Source: Lysobacteraceae bacterium
Lineage (GTDB): Bacteria > Bdellovibrionota > UBA1018 > JAGTJX01
Assembly (NCBI GenBank): GCA_023657465.1
Contig: JAGTJX010000002.1
Coordinates: forward strand, 398,136-462,135
DNA: 64,000 bases
Reading direction: 5' to 3'
Shown: piece by piece, positions 39,328 to 45,287 of the stretch
Layout: every line of letters begins with the position of its first letter
How positions within the stretch are numbered: position 1 is the first letter of the stretch
Translations under genes and position numbers: made by a program
Notes under the pieces: model-generated
The model's database searches: none
What the model saw: the letters and a program-made list of their open reading frames with translations, nothing else
Told to the model about the DNA's origin: nothing

Positions 39328-39783
39328 ATGAGTACAGCAAACGGTTATATCTTCAATGAGCGGCAAGATTCGCTCCCCCAAACCCTCAAACACAGGGACC
39401 ATGTCCTCGTGGAATTCCCTGATGAGCGCTTCGAAGCAGTTGTTTTTCAGTGGGATCACACTCGTCCTACGGTCGTGGTTCAGTTGAAGTTAGATGCTGA
39501 AGAACCCATCCAATTCCCTAAGAAACGGCCTAAACAAGCTGGAAACGCCGAGATGCCGGATAATCGCTATCCAGTTCTGACAGCCCAAGTCCCAGGGGTC
39601 GTGAATCCCATGAAAGCTGTGGGTTACGCAGATCCATTATACAGAGCTGATCTCGTGTTCTCAGAGCGTGCGTTCCGCGTCCTTCAGCCAGAAGATGGAT
39701 ATGTCATTCCGCTAGATAATTTGGCTGAACTCAGGGGCGAAGCAATCAAGGCGTTAGGACTGACGGATCAACCTGGATTCTGA
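39328..39783 (+). CDS. Conserved-looking soluble protein of unknown function
   Basis: A 151-residue cytoplasmic protein with no signal peptide. The first half (HVLVEFPDERFEAVVFQW and RPTVVVQLKLD) suggests a small beta domain resembling PilZ-like or SH3-like folds, but I cannot assign it. Its last codons and stop are the left arm of a 299-bp inverted repeat. ATG at 39328 has no clear ribosome site. Confidence 0.68.
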   Translation: MSTANGYIFNERQDSLPQTLKHRDHVLVEFPDERFEAVVFQWDHTRPTVVVQLKLDAEEPIQFPKKRPKQAGNAEMPDNRYPVLTAQVPGVVNPMKAVGYADPLYRADLVFSERAFRVLQPEDGYVIPLDNLAELRGEAIKALGLTDQPGF

Positions 39784-40071
39784 GCCTCTGCTACCTAGAA
39801 TCCTACATAAAACTAGTTTTCCCACTCACTTAATCTTCTTCTGAAAGAGTACAGCTCCTGCTTCACATGTCTCTCACTGCTCCTTTTCAATAAGCACGAG
39901 ATTTTATGGAGCTGGATGCGCTCCCATAAAAGGGCAGGAGCCCGTTCTAGTGCGGATTGAAAAGGAACAGGGAGCACGCATCCGCAGGCATGAGCCTCTT
40001 TCAGAAGAAGATTAAGTGAGTCTGAGAATAAATCTTAGAAGGATTCTAGGTAGCAGAGGCTCAGAGTCCAG
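39773..40071. repeat. 299-bp nested inverted repeat between convergent genes
   Basis: A perfect 25-bp arm (39780-39804 with 40040-40064), a perfect 26-bp arm (39824-39849 with 39996-40021), and an inner arm around CCTTTTCAAT / ATTGAAAAGG with few mismatches are nested in register about one centre near 39922. The outermost arm extends into the last codons of both flanking genes and includes both stop codons. It could form a very long RNA hairpin or a DNA cruciform. It has the shape of a MITE but no target duplication is evident. Confidence 0.9.
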
Positions 40072-40573
40072 AAGACTCCTCGAGTCGTTTTTCCTCAGCC
40101 GCAATCATGATCTTCGCGCAAGCAAGCGCATCGCTGAGCGCTTCATGGTGATTGAGTGGAATATCAAGCGCTCGGCACACGTCTGAAAGTTTAGTCGGGA
40201 AAATATTCCAAGCACGACGAGCGGTCACAACAGAACACGCAAATGGTTTATTGGGACGTCTAATTCCATACTTCTCGGCGCACGCATGAAGCACTCGTCT
40301 ATCAAATGAAGCGTTGTGAGCTGCGATGAAATCAATGCCTTCAAAGAGTTCAGAAATCTGAGGCCAGAGATCGCCGAAGTGAGGTGAGTCCTTCACTTGA
40401 TGCCAAGTGAGACCGTGAATGTAGGTAAACATAAATTGAGGAGAGGGAGGGCGAATGAGGTGAACTTCTTGTTTGACGATTTTGCCACTTTCGACTCGGA
40501 CGAGACCCAGTGCGCACGCGCTATCCGCTTGTGGGGTTGCGGTCTCAAAGTCGATGGCAAGGAAGTTGCTCAT
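40061..40573 (-). CDS. DnaQ-like 3'-5' exonuclease
   Basis: A 170-residue DEDD exonuclease. Motif I is FLAIDFETATP, motif II is FIAAHNASFDRRVL, and motif III is HHEALSDALACAKIM, so all four acidic residues and the histidine (DEDDh type) appear. It resembles the free-standing exonuclease domain of DNA polymerase III epsilon and similar nucleases. The last codons lie in the right arm of the large inverted repeat. It overlaps the upstream lipoprotein gene by four bases and closes that operon. Confidence 0.88.
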   Translation of the reverse strand: MSNFLAIDFETATPQADSACALGLVRVESGKIVKQEVHLIRPPSPQFMFTYIHGLTWHQVKDSPHFGDLWPQISELFEGIDFIAAHNASFDRRVLHACAEKYGIRRPNKPFACSVVTARRAWNIFPTKLSDVCRALDIPLNHHEALSDALACAKIMIAAEEKRLEESSGL

Positions 40574-41265
40574 TTGCGGCTCAGTCTGAGTTCTACATAT
40601 CCGTAAGGATTGTGTGAAGTTGTGAATCTGCCGGTGGCTTCAATTTCACCGTTCCAAATCCACTCTTTCTCAGACGGTTTGGATTCCGGTTTCAACTTCA
40701 GTTTCATTGACCATTCGTTTGCTCGAGATTGAATTTTGGTTTCTAGCCAGGAAAATACCCAGAGATCTGTTCTCGGATTGGGTTTGGTTTTATTCCATGA
40801 GCTCATGAAAAGTGGAGCATCTTGAGGAGTTTTTCTACAATTGAGTCTGAGTGCATCTGTGTGTTTGAATTCGCATTTCTCGTTTGATCCCCAATTGAGC
40901 ATATAAGATGCATGATGGTCTGAGATCTCTGAGAGTATGTCGGTGATCTCGAGGGTGACTTCATCTCGTTCGGCTTCGAGATCCTCTCCATCATGAATAC
41001 GTTTGGTCAATTCTTTCTGTGTTTGCCTCAAGCGAGAGAGGTTTTGAGTTTGTTTGAAGATGGTTTTCCATTTGTCTTGAGAGATCCCTTGTTTGAAAAC
41101 AATGAGAGTGAATTCATCGACAGTAAAACCGTTGAGATCTGAGGATTCCCAAGCTGGAGAGCGCGAATATTCAAGGAGCTTAGCAGGTTGCTCTGCAACA
41201 GGTTTCAAATCTCCACAACTGCAGAGAAAGAGACAAGTGGTGAGGAGTGTGGTCTTAAGTTTCAT
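40570..41265 (-). CDS. Lipoprotein of unknown function
   Basis: A 231-residue lipoprotein with lipobox L-C-S-C followed by GDLKPVAEQ, so it is exported and lipid-anchored. The mature part has a coiled-coil-like central segment (RLRQTQKELTKRIHDGEDLE) and a beta-rich C-terminal half. It overlaps the barrel gene by one base and the exonuclease gene by four. Because it sits in the ExbB-ExbD-TatT-barrel operon, it is probably part of an envelope system, but no known family is recognised. Confidence 0.78.
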   Translation of the reverse strand: MKLKTTLLTTCLFLCSCGDLKPVAEQPAKLLEYSRSPAWESSDLNGFTVDEFTLIVFKQGISQDKWKTIFKQTQNLSRLRQTQKELTKRIHDGEDLEAERDEVTLEITDILSEISDHHASYMLNWGSNEKCEFKHTDALRLNCRKTPQDAPLFMSSWNKTKPNPRTDLWVFSWLETKIQSRANEWSMKLKLKPESKPSEKEWIWNGEIEATGRFTTSHNPYGYVELRLSRK

Positions 41266-42530
41266 TAGAAGAACAGCGCTCCTTGCAATAAGTACGTGGG
41301 AGTATTGAGTGAGTTTTGGCTTGCGATAGGGATTCCTGCTCCTAAGCTCAACATTCCTGGGAAGAGAAACTTGCCATCAAGAAAAGCCCTGATCGTGTTG
41401 AACTCAATTCCGGCTTGAATGCTGTGAAGGGATTCTTCAGTGAGTTTAGTAAGAAGATCGTATCTTGTGGAATCAAAGAGAGAACCTGAGAATGTTTTCT
41501 GAAAACGTCTTTGGAATTGATAAGAGAGCTTGGTTCCTATGAGCGTGCTCCAATCATAACGAAACGATGTGAATGCTTGCGCAAGAATTCCACCCGAAAT
41601 CTGAGTAGAAGGATCAATATCGGAAGGCAGGAAATCAATCGAGTTTTTAGGGACTCTCACGCTCATCTCTGTTCCGAAGGGAATCATTACTGAAGTCGAT
41701 GCAAGAATCGTAGACCTGCGTAATCCGGGGGGGTTCCAAGCAGCAGTGATCTTCTGGCCAAGGGCGAATCTCTTTTCACCTCCAGAGAACCCAAAGAAAT
41801 CATCCGTGGCTGAAGGTTCAGCAGTTGGAAACACCGCTTGAGTAGACGCAATCCATTGAAGGGGTTTTGTGACTTCAGTTAATGGTACAGGGACTTCCAT
41901 TCTCAGATCACCTACGCATTGTAATTCACGATTCGGAGTGTTGGTGAATCCTGAATGTTTCAACTGAAGATCGAAACCTTGATTGAGACTTTCTGCCATC
42001 TCACTAGCAGTAGAAGACTGACCTGATGATTGTAAATTTTGAATGAGCTGCTGGGCGCTACTCGATGCTTGATATGCAGTCGAGTAAGATGTTTGGAATT
42101 TGATAATAGGAATTACAAAGAAGACTCCGATACGGTCAGTAAGTCCGTAGCCAATGAGAGGGACGAGAGTTGTTGCGCGACCGCCAAATGATCCAGCGAA
42201 CGATCCTGCAGATTGACTGAAGTCCATGATTCCGTTTGCTGAAAGCAGTCCCGCTACTTGATTCTTCCGTGCGGGTTCTGAGTCCATGAGCGTCTGCCAA
42301 GTGAGATTCCGATTGAAGAGTGAAGAGAAACTCTGTGAATCACCATTCAGAAGAGACTTGCTCTCAAGAGGTGTAACAAGATTCAATACAGAAACGATGA
42401 ATCGACCCTGAGGGAGTGAACCTGTGGTTTCACCCACAATGTTAGGGAGTAGCGCAGAGGAATTGGGGACCGGGACTTGGTCTGTCGCGCGCGCGCTATG
42501 GAGTGATAAAAAAATCCAGAGCGAGAACAT
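41265..42530 (-). CDS. Outer-membrane beta-barrel protein
   Basis: A 421-residue protein with a signal peptide ending LHSARA and a body of alternating amphipathic strands (for example GRATTLVPLIGYGLTDRIGV and WSTLIGTKLSYQFQRRF). The last residues are GALFF, the aromatic barrel-sorting signal. No specific family recognised. It is followed directly by the lipoprotein gene and preceded by the TatT-like gene without a gap. A substrate channel working with the ExbB/ExbD motor is an attractive inference. Confidence 0.8.
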   Translation of the reverse strand: MFSLWIFLSLHSARATDQVPVPNSSALLPNIVGETTGSLPQGRFIVSVLNLVTPLESKSLLNGDSQSFSSLFNRNLTWQTLMDSEPARKNQVAGLLSANGIMDFSQSAGSFAGSFGGRATTLVPLIGYGLTDRIGVFFVIPIIKFQTSYSTAYQASSSAQQLIQNLQSSGQSSTASEMAESLNQGFDLQLKHSGFTNTPNRELQCVGDLRMEVPVPLTEVTKPLQWIASTQAVFPTAEPSATDDFFGFSGGEKRFALGQKITAAWNPPGLRRSTILASTSVMIPFGTEMSVRVPKNSIDFLPSDIDPSTQISGGILAQAFTSFRYDWSTLIGTKLSYQFQRRFQKTFSGSLFDSTRYDLLTKLTEESLHSIQAGIEFNTIRAFLDGKFLFPGMLSLGAGIPIASQNSLNTPTYLLQGALFF

Positions 42531-43286
42531 TTATTTTAATGTTTCCTCAGCTTCTTTTTGATCGAGAGTTGTTTCTTGTATTCTATCTGGATCAAAAGTT
42601 TTTGGTTCTATTTCAATCAATTCTTTCATGATTTCACGTGCTTCGTCTTTGCGATCATCACTGACAAGATATTTTCCGTAGTACAGTGGGTTGATGGAGA
42701 AGCGGGGAGCTTTTTCTAGAGAAGTTTTGAAATACTTTTCTCCGAGCTCCTTGTCGCCACCGACAAGCCCGGGAACTGTCGTATAAATAATTCCTAGCAC
42801 TCGGTGAGCGCCATATCCGTGTACAGTTTCATCAAGCTCAATCGTTTTACGAAGTTTTGCTTTGATTTTGGGTAGAACTTTCAGAGTATGAGTGGGAATC
42901 AGGGCGTTTCCATCTTGGTCTTTGGCTTTTGCAGATTGAAAAATCGCACTCCAGTAATATCCAGATCCTGCTTTTTCAAACGATGCCATGAGATCGTTTG
43001 AAGCGCGTTCACCTAGAGAGATTCCTAGAGTCCGAAGCTCAAGGGTAGTACCACGTATGGCATTCCAACTAGCTGCAAGCGCTGACATCTCGAGTGCGCG
43101 TTTGCGAGTAGCAATCTCTTCTTCGGAAGTTTTTTCTTTTAAACTCTCTGAGACAGAGTAGTAGCAATTCGTAGTCTCAACTAATTTCTCTGGTCTTAAG
43201 ATGTAAGCTTGGTCACAGTCTTCGATTTTTGGTTGTTCAAGTGCTAATCCAAAAGAAATTCCCCAGACGATCAACAGTAGATTCAT
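42531..43286 (-). CDS. TatT-like TPR periplasmic protein
   Basis: A 251-residue protein with a short signal peptide (NLLLIVWGISFGLA). The C-terminal half contains the TatT (TRAP-transporter T-component) pattern: GSGYYWSAIF, HGYGAHRVLGIIYTTVPGL, GGDKELGEKYFKTSLEKAP and a final YGKYLV. In Treponema, TatT forms a trimer that feeds hydrophobic ligands to a TRAP binding protein. No TRAP transporter genes are near; the neighbours are exbD (upstream) and a barrel (downstream). It is soluble rather than a lipoprotein, since no lipobox is seen. Confidence 0.75.
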   Translation of the reverse strand: MNLLLIVWGISFGLALEQPKIEDCDQAYILRPEKLVETTNCYYSVSESLKEKTSEEEIATRKRALEMSALAASWNAIRGTTLELRTLGISLGERASNDLMASFEKAGSGYYWSAIFQSAKAKDQDGNALIPTHTLKVLPKIKAKLRKTIELDETVHGYGAHRVLGIIYTTVPGLVGGDKELGEKYFKTSLEKAPRFSINPLYYGKYLVSDDRKDEAREIMKELIEIEPKTFDPDRIQETTLDQKEAEETLK

Positions 43287-43334
43287 AGATTTAGGGTGTT
43301 AACATTAAACGAGTAGTAAGGAAATGAATGACGC

Positions 43335-43748
43335 TTAGCGTTTTTGAACTTGGATGCCGATATGAGTGATTTTAGCCGACTTGACTTGATCCATCACTTT
43401 GACCACGTCTCCATGCTTGGAATCGGTGTCAGCTGAGATCACGGCTTGGATCTCAGGATTCTGGGCAGCAAGTGTTTTTAATTCCTTTTCAATTTCAGCA
43501 TCATTAGCAAAACTTTTTGCATTGATTCTGACTTGTCCGTTTTTCAAAATTGCGACTTGTACTGAAGTAGGGACTGATTTGGAATCAGAACTTGTAGACT
43601 TAGGAAGTTGAATTCCCAATGTTTCTTTCATCAAAGCTGGCGCTGTTACCATGAAGATCACCAGCAGAACTAAGACGACATCTACGAATGGAGTGATGTT
43701 GATTGTAGAGATCGGTTCGTCGTCGTTTGTGTACTGTGATCCTGCCAT
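43335..43748 (-). CDS. exbD: ExbD/TolR family biopolymer transport protein
   Basis: A 137-residue protein with one N-terminal membrane helix (INITPFVDVVLVLLVIFMVT) that carries the conserved Asp in the FVDVVLVLLVIF segment required to conduct protons, then a periplasmic domain (VQVAILKNGQVRINAK and AVISADTDSKHGDVVKVMD). It pairs with the upstream ExbB-like protein. ExbD and TolR cannot be told apart from sequence alone; there is no TonB, TolA or Pal here. The start overlaps the exbB stop by one base. Confidence 0.9.
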   Translation of the reverse strand: MAGSQYTNDDEPISTINITPFVDVVLVLLVIFMVTAPALMKETLGIQLPKSTSSDSKSVPTSVQVAILKNGQVRINAKSFANDAEIEKELKTLAAQNPEIQAVISADTDSKHGDVVKVMDQVKSAKITHIGIQVQKR

Positions 43749-44350
43749 TAGCTATGTCTCGAGAGATAAAGATTCATGAGAGATTCGCAATCGGTGAGGA
43801 GGATCTTGATCTTCCTTGAGAGTGCGTTGTAAGCAATCCCGGCAGGAATCGCGACGAATAATCCAACTGCGGTAGCGATCAGAGCTTCAGAGATTCCCAC
43901 CATCACACTTGCTGCGGCTCCCTGAGAAGCGCCCAATGCGCTGAATGCTTGAATGACTCCAAGTACAGTTCCCAGAAGTCCAATGAATGCAGCATTAGCA
44001 GCAAGAGTTGCAAGTGTAGTCATTCCTTTTTCAAGTTTCATTCTCTCAGTGGAGAGGTAGCTGCGTACAGACTTTTCACATTTATCAATATCTTTGGTCT
44101 TGGTTTCAATCAATGTGTGGATCGTGCCTGCGCGAACTCCACTAGATGAGTTCTCTGCCCACTTCTTGAGGCCTTCCCAGTCTTGGTCTTTGATGAGCTT
44201 CTCTGCAGATTTGAAGCTCGCAGCCTTGTCTGTTTTATTCAGAGCTTTGATCCGATCAATCATGATCGAGATCGACCAGATCGAGAGTCCGATCATGAGG
44301 ATGAGTATAAATTTTGATCCAAATTGGGTTGCTAAAATGATTCCAGTCAT
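43748..44350 (-). CDS. exbB: ExbB/TolQ family motor protein
   Basis: A 200-residue proton-channel protein with three membrane helices: about residues 10-30, 110-135 and 150-175. The conserved block LATLAANAAFIGLLGTVLGVIQAF and GISEALIATAVGLFVAIPAGIAYNA are the ExbB/TolQ signatures lining the channel. With ExbD it turns proton flow into force for an outer-membrane process. It is the first gene of a six-gene run down to the exonuclease, and is divergent from the 44400 gene with about 50 bases between the starts. Confidence 0.92.
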   Translation of the reverse strand: MTGIILATQFGSKFILILMIGLSIWSISIMIDRIKALNKTDKAASFKSAEKLIKDQDWEGLKKWAENSSSGVRAGTIHTLIETKTKDIDKCEKSVRSYLSTERMKLEKGMTTLATLAANAAFIGLLGTVLGVIQAFSALGASQGAAASVMVGISEALIATAVGLFVAIPAGIAYNALSRKIKILLTDCESLMNLYLSRHS

Positions 44351-44399
44351 GTTGTATTTAGAATAAGGCTCATGTTACGATTTTACCATCATCAATTCA

Positions 44400-45287
44400 T
44401 TGACGTCCCAGCTAGGGAAGATGATGTGCGGGTTAGCGTTACTGACAGCGGTGAGCGAGTTTGCGCGAGCTGATGATTTGACGCTCTATTTCTTTCCTTC
44501 TCAAGGGATCAACTGGAAATCACCTTCGACATTATTAGGATCTGTCGCAAAAAATTTATTGATGGGCGATGAGTACCTGATCGGGCATGTCACCATCGAA
44601 GTGAAATGCGATGCGGACAATATTCGTTTTCATGCGGGTATGTCGTTTGGTGACTTCGATGAATCCAAAGATTTAATTCTCAAGCAAGGTGCAGGAGTCT
44701 CTGTGCTTCTCGTTCCGATGAAAGGTCGATTAGAGAAGTCTAGGTCCATTGAACGTTATCTTCGTGAAGATGCAGAGTACGGCGAGATGAGTTTCTTGCG
44801 CACCTTTATCTCTCGATCTACTTGTCAGAGGCTTGCGCAATATTATTCTGAATATGTGGAACGAAACTATGGAGCTTTTTACGGATTGAAGTTGAGACCT
44901 CGCTATGGTGAGGGAAGTGGTTGCTCTGCGTTTGGGATGAGTTTTCTAGAGCTTGCGGGGCTTCTCGATCCTGAGTTTGAGACAGCAGTCAGAAGACGCG
45001 TCCTCGTTCCCGAGAGTTGGATGGGATATCCTCTTACAGATAAGATGGTCAGAGTTTATGATCTTTGGAAACAAGCGAAGCAATGGGCAACTGAGAGTGA
45101 GCCGAATATAGAACTAAATTTTTGGGATCCTGACCTCATGTACAGCTGGGTTCATAGGAAAATTTCTGAGATCGAGCGTGGCGGTGAGAGACGCATGAGT
45201 TTAGCGAAGTGGGGTGCTTCCCGTGGTTTACTCTGGGATCGAAGGGATGTCCCGACTCCGAGTGGTCCTATTTGGCTCAAGGACTAG
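44400..45287 (+). CDS. Secreted protein with possible permuted papain-like fold
   Basis: About 295 residues with a signal peptide (MMCGLALLTAVSEFARA). An early histidine in LIGHVTIEVKC and a later cysteine in YGEGSGCSAFGMSFLELAG are arranged like permuted NlpC/P60 or LRAT-type enzymes, where His precedes Cys. This is a motif-based inference. The annotated start is a TTG at 44400; the ATG at 44421 is an alternative that still leaves the signal peptide whole. It lies in a convergent pair with the SDR gene. Confidence 0.7.
   Translation: MTSQLGKMMCGLALLTAVSEFARADDLTLYFFPSQGINWKSPSTLLGSVAKNLLMGDEYLIGHVTIEVKCDADNIRFHAGMSFGDFDESKDLILKQGAGVSVLLVPMKGRLEKSRSIERYLREDAEYGEMSFLRTFISRSTCQRLAQYYSEYVERNYGAFYGLKLRPRYGEGSGCSAFGMSFLELAGLLDPEFETAVRRRVLVPESWMGYPLTDKMVRVYDLWKQAKQWATESEPNIELNFWDPDLMYSWVHRKISEIERGGERRMSLAKWGASRGLLWDRRDVPTPSGPIWLKD

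Follow-up and report, generated by a model that had tools for sequence, protein, structure and literature searches.

Do six genes that lie head to tail on one strand form a single energised envelope system, or has an outer-membrane unit come to lie between unrelated neighbors? This question was raised by a locus in a 64,000-nucleotide stretch of DNA (the window) from Lysobacteraceae bacterium, a member of the Bdellovibrionota with a 2.83 Mb genome in 4 contigs. The run consists of exbB, exbD, genes for a TatT-like protein, an outer-membrane beta-barrel and a lipoprotein, and an exonuclease gene; coordinates and Pfam matches confirmed the identities, order, and strand previously given for all six. 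The original prediction read them as one system. The results presented here indicated that the run is three separate things: the exbB-exbD pair, a triad made up of the TatT-like, barrel, and lipoprotein genes, and the exonuclease gene. The triad is one conserved module that recurs across the Bdellovibrionota, and it probably builds a small outer-membrane transport unit. The idea of a candidate envelope transport unit was kept, but for the triad only.

The three genes of the triad are as follows (TPR, tetratricopeptide repeat; aa, amino acids).

42531-43286, minus strand: triad gene 1, TatT-like periplasmic TPR protein of 251 aa (Pfam TAtT, 2.7e-9)
41265-42530, minus strand: triad gene 2, outer-membrane beta-barrel of 421 aa with a COG4313/FapF-type fold in a predicted model
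40570-41265, minus strand: triad gene 3, lipoprotein of 231 aa with lipobox LCSC at residues 14-17 of the sequence

Conservation of the triad

The window's own genome and 57 relatives were searched with the TatT-like protein and with the barrel, which had matches in 34 and 32 of the 58 genomes, respectively. A barrel profile matched in 188 of 368 genomes of the phylum, and the barrel relatives included metagenome-assembled genomes labelled Bdellovibrionales, Bacteriovoracaceae, Oligoflexia, and others. Most, but not all, of the strongest barrel matches outside the order are represented by 37 loci (L247-L283). The order-level loci L032-L067 were chosen by TatT and were left out of the unbiased count, and nine weaker barrel relatives were kept apart from the triad-type counts.

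As regards the rows chosen by barrel (L183, L184, and L247-L283), a TatT-like gene lay immediately upstream of the barrel gene in 37 of 40; the rows that did not have one were L183, L258, and L278. The gene was counted as present in L247, where it is in two pieces, and in L260, where only a piece is found at the contig end. The open reading frame caller keeps the longest non-overlapping frames and some genes were hidden; the TatT-like genes of L254, L279, and L260 were detected by a six-frame scan only. The same arrangement was observed in 12 of 12 order relatives of the close type (L032-L043), a TatT-chosen and biased sample.

On the other side of the barrel gene, a lipoprotein gene of the family was found 3' in all 10 close loci where the sequence reaches. 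Among the 56 triad-type rows whose contig continued to another gene, this third gene was on the same strand in all 56, and 50 of the 56 showed a simple lipobox pattern. The flanks varied among triad loci, and many contigs ended nearby. Mean pairwise identities over 47 triads were 26% for the TatT-like protein, 28% for the barrel, and only 17% for the lipoprotein; because these values are so low, it seemed that the gene order has outlived much divergence.

The remaining genes of the run did not travel with the triad. In the stretches fetched for 60 triad-type rows outside the window, exbB or exbD was found nearer than 6.5 kb to the barrel gene in none (L047 was the single exception in having ExbB at all close, at 6.6 kb), and an exonuclease was found near the triad in none. 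Gene-neighborhood conservation, which had been proposed as a check, therefore gave a divided answer: the TatT-like, barrel, and lipoprotein genes stay together across the phylum, and exbBD and the exonuclease dissociate from them. On the neighborhood data across relatives, one six-gene system was rejected, and the proton motor and the exonuclease that stand beside the triad in one genome are most likely accidental neighbors.

Some loci departed from the usual arrangement. Two tandem triads were present in one genome (L264 1156-8853). Weaker, TatT-less barrel relatives of 449-514 aa lay near exb genes at L174 7236-10389, L175 6685-9802, and L180 1-2692. In L284 and L285 (family f11, two genomes), a distant barrel was followed by a lipoprotein-like protein of 855-857 aa; in L284, the gene upstream of this barrel, in place of TatT, reads like a trypsin-type protease (GDSGGP).

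Proteins of the triad

The TatT-like protein matched Pfam TAtT with 37.2 bits (cut-off, 26.5) and the NCBIfam BstC model at 2.8e-6, which is under that model's cut-off; its profile matched the BstC structure 7t1s at 1.7e-6. Its first cysteine, C24, stands in the context IEDC, and inspection of the sequence and of an alignment by eye showed no lipobox. TatT is described as having a hydrophobic pore in which a linear hydrophobic molecule was bound, and transport of lipids through the periplasm to a tripartite ATP-independent periplasmic (TRAP) transport system has been proposed for it (PMC5812351); BstC, a T-component relative of the same superfamily, binds sterols (PMC10942540). A search for the TRAP permease DctM at E 0.01 found none in the whole genome, and the control genomes were positive. 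This bore out the earlier observation that a TRAP gene was absent, and a TRAP partner for the TatT-like protein was rejected for this genome. DctM was present in only 3 of 12 close triad genomes (G006, G016, and G045). Because there is no DctM in this genome, the triad appears to be independent of TRAP transporters. A protein-only scan of the genome contigs with the TatT-like query found no relative. In the same genome, a second short TAtT-family protein (168 aa, 4.5e-7) is encoded at L052 9801-10307, and no barrel of the triad type was labelled beside it.

In the predicted model, the barrel has a COG4313/FapF-type, 12-strand-type fold. The model (mean predicted local distance difference test score [pLDDT], 80.9) matched solved outer-membrane barrels, with the COG4313 channel 4rl8 as the best match (Z 25.4 over 261 residues; root mean square deviation [rmsd], 2.7), FapF 5o65 as the second best (Z 24.9 over 260 residues; rmsd, 2.5), and the next fold at Z 19.3. 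Identity to the COG4313/FapF channels was about 10-13% in the structural alignment, and the barrel profile had no match among Protein Data Bank sequences. Neither the barrel (searched to E 0.1) nor the lipoprotein of the window belongs to a Pfam family, and Pfam searches with three barrel relatives gave nothing above chance at E 1, including DUF560. The model has helical insertions at 68-98 and 157-192. Its first strand begins at residue 44, with only about 43 residues before it and no FapF-like coiled coil. An invariant P-T pair at residues 235-236 was likened by eye to the PTG motifs reported for FapF, a barrel that secretes polypeptide (PMC5557850). COG4313 channels have been implicated in the uptake of hydrophobic molecules, possibly with lateral exit from the barrel (PMC4493636).

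The lipobox cysteine of the lipoprotein, C17, was invariant in 10 of 10 close homologues and in 35 of 35 wider ones. The lipoprotein was the fastest evolving of the three proteins, with identity below that of the barrel in 99.3% of 1081 pairs, and its length ranged from 231 to 611 aa over 47 triads. Its model (pLDDT, 73.7) showed one strand, a helical hairpin (63-117), and then further strands. Many of the best-aligned rows were small 8-stranded barrels (designed barrels, lipocalins, avidins, fHbp, and NHBA-C), with noise-level scores of Z 4.7-8.0, and a Foldseek search with the model gave nothing under E 0.001.

The exbB-exbD pair and the exonuclease

The genes of the run outside the triad are as follows.

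43748-44350, minus strand: exbB (Pfam MotA_ExbB, 2.1e-31), placed by tree
43335-43748, minus strand: exbD (Pfam ExbD, 1.3e-28), partner of ExbB
40061-40573, minus strand: DEDDh 3'-5' exonuclease, cytoplasmic (RNase_T, 3.5e-14)

By coordinates, exbB and exbD overlap by 1 base and a gap of 48 bases separates exbD from the TatT-like gene, which abuts the barrel gene with a gap of 0. The barrel and lipoprotein genes overlap by 1 base, and the lipoprotein and exonuclease genes overlap by 4 bases. A scan for promoters and terminators was uninformative (2 promoter-like sites were found, compared to 5.6 expected from shuffles), and Rfam had no match over 39700-44500.

ExbB-type proteins were found in 58 of 58 genomes. 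The NCBIfam tolQ, tolR, and exbB models matched the window ExbB and ExbD, all below their cut-offs. Some of the proteins that matched the window ExbB best (about 50% identity) came from loci in which exbB and exbD are followed by genes for a TonB_C protein and a plug-domain receptor, and 11 ExbB rows of relatives had such TonB and receptor neighbors; the neighbors were assigned by Pfam for L146 and labelled at the other loci by phmmer with the L146 proteins. In family f5, an orthologous exbBD pair occurs without TonB, and in L148 its neighbors are genes for transketolase and ferrochelatase. A tree was built from 31 ExbB rows, from which L145, L154, and L156 were omitted because exbB was hidden under a longer antisense frame. 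The window ExbB fell at an unresolved position inside a clade of 23 rows (92/91), and every one of the 11 TonB-linked rows belonged to this clade as well. Outside it fell the three further ExbB copies encoded in this genome, one with a TonB_2-domain protein (L176) and two with two ExbD genes each (L177 and L208).

The original prediction noted the lack of a TonB gene. This is true of the neighborhood, since tonB is not adjacent to the window exbBD, but a Fur-TonB-receptor operon is present elsewhere in the genome (L205). It contains the only plug-domain receptor of the genome above the cut-off, and no exbB or exbD was found near it in the 15 kb read. Because the exbBD genes of relatives precede TonB and receptor genes and the L205 operon is without its own exbBD, we infer that the window exbBD serves the L205 TonB. 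Thus, the window exbBD most likely energises a TonB and receptor encoded elsewhere in the genome. Also in this genome are two exbB-exbD-exbD sets (L208 1-5065 and L177 5407-7272), one of them followed by a 1148 aa TPR protein, which resemble in make-up the AglRQS-type motors described for gliding. A TonB_C-domain protein is encoded at L206 6924-9977, between a subtilase and a phytochelatin-synthase-like protein.

The exonuclease is a cytoplasmic enzyme that is most likely unrelated to the triad. It keeps the DEDDh residues (DFE at 8, HNASFD at 86, and HHEALSD at 142), it resembles PRK06195-type exonucleases below the model's cut-off, and no signal peptide was seen by eye. Homologues with at least 44% identity were present in 12 other genomes of the order (13 rows with that of the window), and none was beside a triad in the eight neighborhoods fetched (L165-L172), where the nearest homologues lay among other genes. 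The 4-base overlap with the lipoprotein gene suggests that the two genes are co-transcribed in this genome. A role in nucleic-acid uptake, which had been raised solely on the basis of the exonuclease, found no support, and the exonuclease was rejected as an uptake enzyme on the eight neighborhoods fetched. Next to it, at 39773-40071, a large imperfect inverted repeat lies between two convergent genes, with arms of 32 nucleotides (97%) and 42 nucleotides (83%). Because segments of this repeat (about 63-217 of 282 bases) are found again at 8 further genomic sites with 74-90% identity, it looks like a palindromic interspersed element.

Possible function and known systems

We tentatively favor the idea that the triad offers hydrophobic molecules a passive route across the outer membrane, with a separate exbBD and an unrelated exonuclease, because hydrophobic ligands are handled by TatT/BstC proteins as well as by COG4313 channels. 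In such a route, a hydrophobic or amphipathic molecule would pass the outer membrane by way of the barrel. The TatT-like protein (a hydrophobic through-pore is a feature of its family) would take up or hand over the molecule on the periplasmic side. The lipoprotein may assist at the outer membrane, and the triad would work without a TRAP permease and without direct use of the proton-motive force. A broader proposal is possible but rather less secure: the triad could be a TRAP-independent, phylum-wide machine made of a TatT-type carrier, a COG4313/FapF-type barrel, and a small-barrel lipoprotein with a helical hairpin of varying length, for either import of lipids and other hydrophobic molecules or lipoprotein export. 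If this is true, a TatT system would for the first time be linked to a defined outer-membrane channel.

Several observations weigh against a hydrophobic route with separate neighbors. The TatT-like proteins are divergent, and only 16 of 52 triad homologues reach TAtT at E 0.01. FapF, the second-best fold match, is a polypeptide secretor, and a cargo moving in the direction of export is possible. The nine weaker barrel relatives (L174, L175, L178-L182, L284, and L285) are without TatT upstream, although the contig of L182 ends there. In this genome, four TonB_C proteins score above the cut-off, and the TonB partner of the window exbBD is an assignment among them. The genomes searched all lie outside the genus and family of the host, which places retention of exbBD beside the triad within the family out of view.

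The main rival is a Slam-like split export unit in which the lipoprotein is cargo and is brought to the cell surface by the barrel together with the TatT-like TPR protein. We regard this as unlikely but worth serious attention. The rapid evolution of the lipoprotein would fit a surface cargo, but fast evolution is common to many different proteins. NHBA is a Slam cargo. So is fHbp, and a TPR domain, a barrel, and an adjacent lipoprotein are the parts list of Slam/NilB systems (PMC8406197); the lipoprotein model aligned to both cargo barrels, but at the noise-level scores given above. The secretion of polypeptide by FapF, the near fold match, also speaks for export. Conversely, neither the window barrel nor the three relatives matched DUF560 or any other Pfam family above chance at the thresholds given above, and the TPR part here is encoded on its own, as a TatT-type protein. 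A structural or assembly complex without a transport role is improbable. Its model would be the GltA/B/C-CglC outer-membrane part of the Myxococcus gliding machine, which has the same kinds of part, namely, barrels, a periplasmic TPR protein, and a lipoprotein (PMC4488436). Bdellovibrio glides and has Glt/Agl-like sets (PMC3169522), and this genome carries the two exbB-exbD-exbD sets. However, compared by size only, the OmpA-like GltA and GltB (256 and 275 aa) and GltC (673 aa) are unlike the 421 aa COG4313-type barrel and the 251 aa TatT-like protein, and no exbB-type genes stood beside the triad in the loci read.

The force from ExbB-ExbD onto the barrel through the TatT-like protein, as originally suggested, found no support and is very improbable. 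The same strand and the short gap between exbD and the TatT-like gene fit this idea, and so do the exbBD or exbD genes found 0.6-1.1 kb from three weak barrel relatives (L174, L175, and L180), which count against the passive route. In these three cases, however, the exb genes lie on the strand opposite to the barrel gene, and a phospholipid-methyltransferase-like gene stands between them and the barrel relative in L174. Furthermore, the 60 triad-type rows outside the window are without exbBD nearer than 6.5 kb in the stretches fetched, the window ExbB groups with TonB-linked ExbB proteins, and the genome has a TonB-receptor operon that is without exbBD in the 15 kb read. The presence of exbBD beside a barrel is no evidence of an energised barrel, and this corrects the reading of the locus.

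The triad combines known parts in a new way, and it is this combination, found across the phylum, that is novel. No such triad was described in the titles and abstract openings of open-licence papers on TatT/TRAP/TPAT, COG4313/FapF, Slam, or Bdellovibrio. TatT proteins have been tied to TRAP transporters, and their supply of hydrophobic molecules from the outer membrane is only conjectured. The triad links a TatT-like protein to one particular barrel, which makes the supply question directly testable, and the phylum in which it occurs is known for predatory members that feed on prey cells.

Each part has a known counterpart. The exbB and exbD families are those of TonB systems, and the orthologues in relatives precede tonB and a receptor gene; here, in contrast, tonB and the receptor are encoded elsewhere in the genome. 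Slam, or type 11 secretion (DUF560), also combines a TPR domain, a barrel, and an adjacent lipoprotein, but the TPR protein here is unfused and the barrel is nearest another fold family. The COG4313 channels (Pput2725 and SphA) and FapF share the predicted fold (Z 25), and the P-T pair was likened by eye to the FapF motifs, whereas the barrel here is longer, has helical insertions, is without the N-terminal periplasmic coiled coil of FapF and without a Pfam family, and has fixed TatT-like and lipoprotein neighbors. For Treponema pallidum, FadL-like barrels with TPR extensions have been proposed to hand over cargo to TatT (PMC8407342), and the idea of a hydrophobic-ligand barrel that works with a TatT protein is the same. 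FadL barrels are 14-stranded and carry the TPR there as a fusion, with TatT as part of a TRAP system, whereas the TatT-like protein and barrel here are separate neighbors without TRAP. Finally, TatT of the TPR-protein-associated TRAP transporter (TPAT; T. pallidum Tp0956) and BstC of Methylococcus resemble the TatT-like protein in the TAtT match and as periplasmic, TPR-type helical proteins. Tp0956 has a lipoprotein anchor, whereas no lipobox was seen by eye here, and in place of a TRAP permease or substrate-binding partner beside its gene, the TatT-like protein of the triad has an outer-membrane barrel as its fixed partner.

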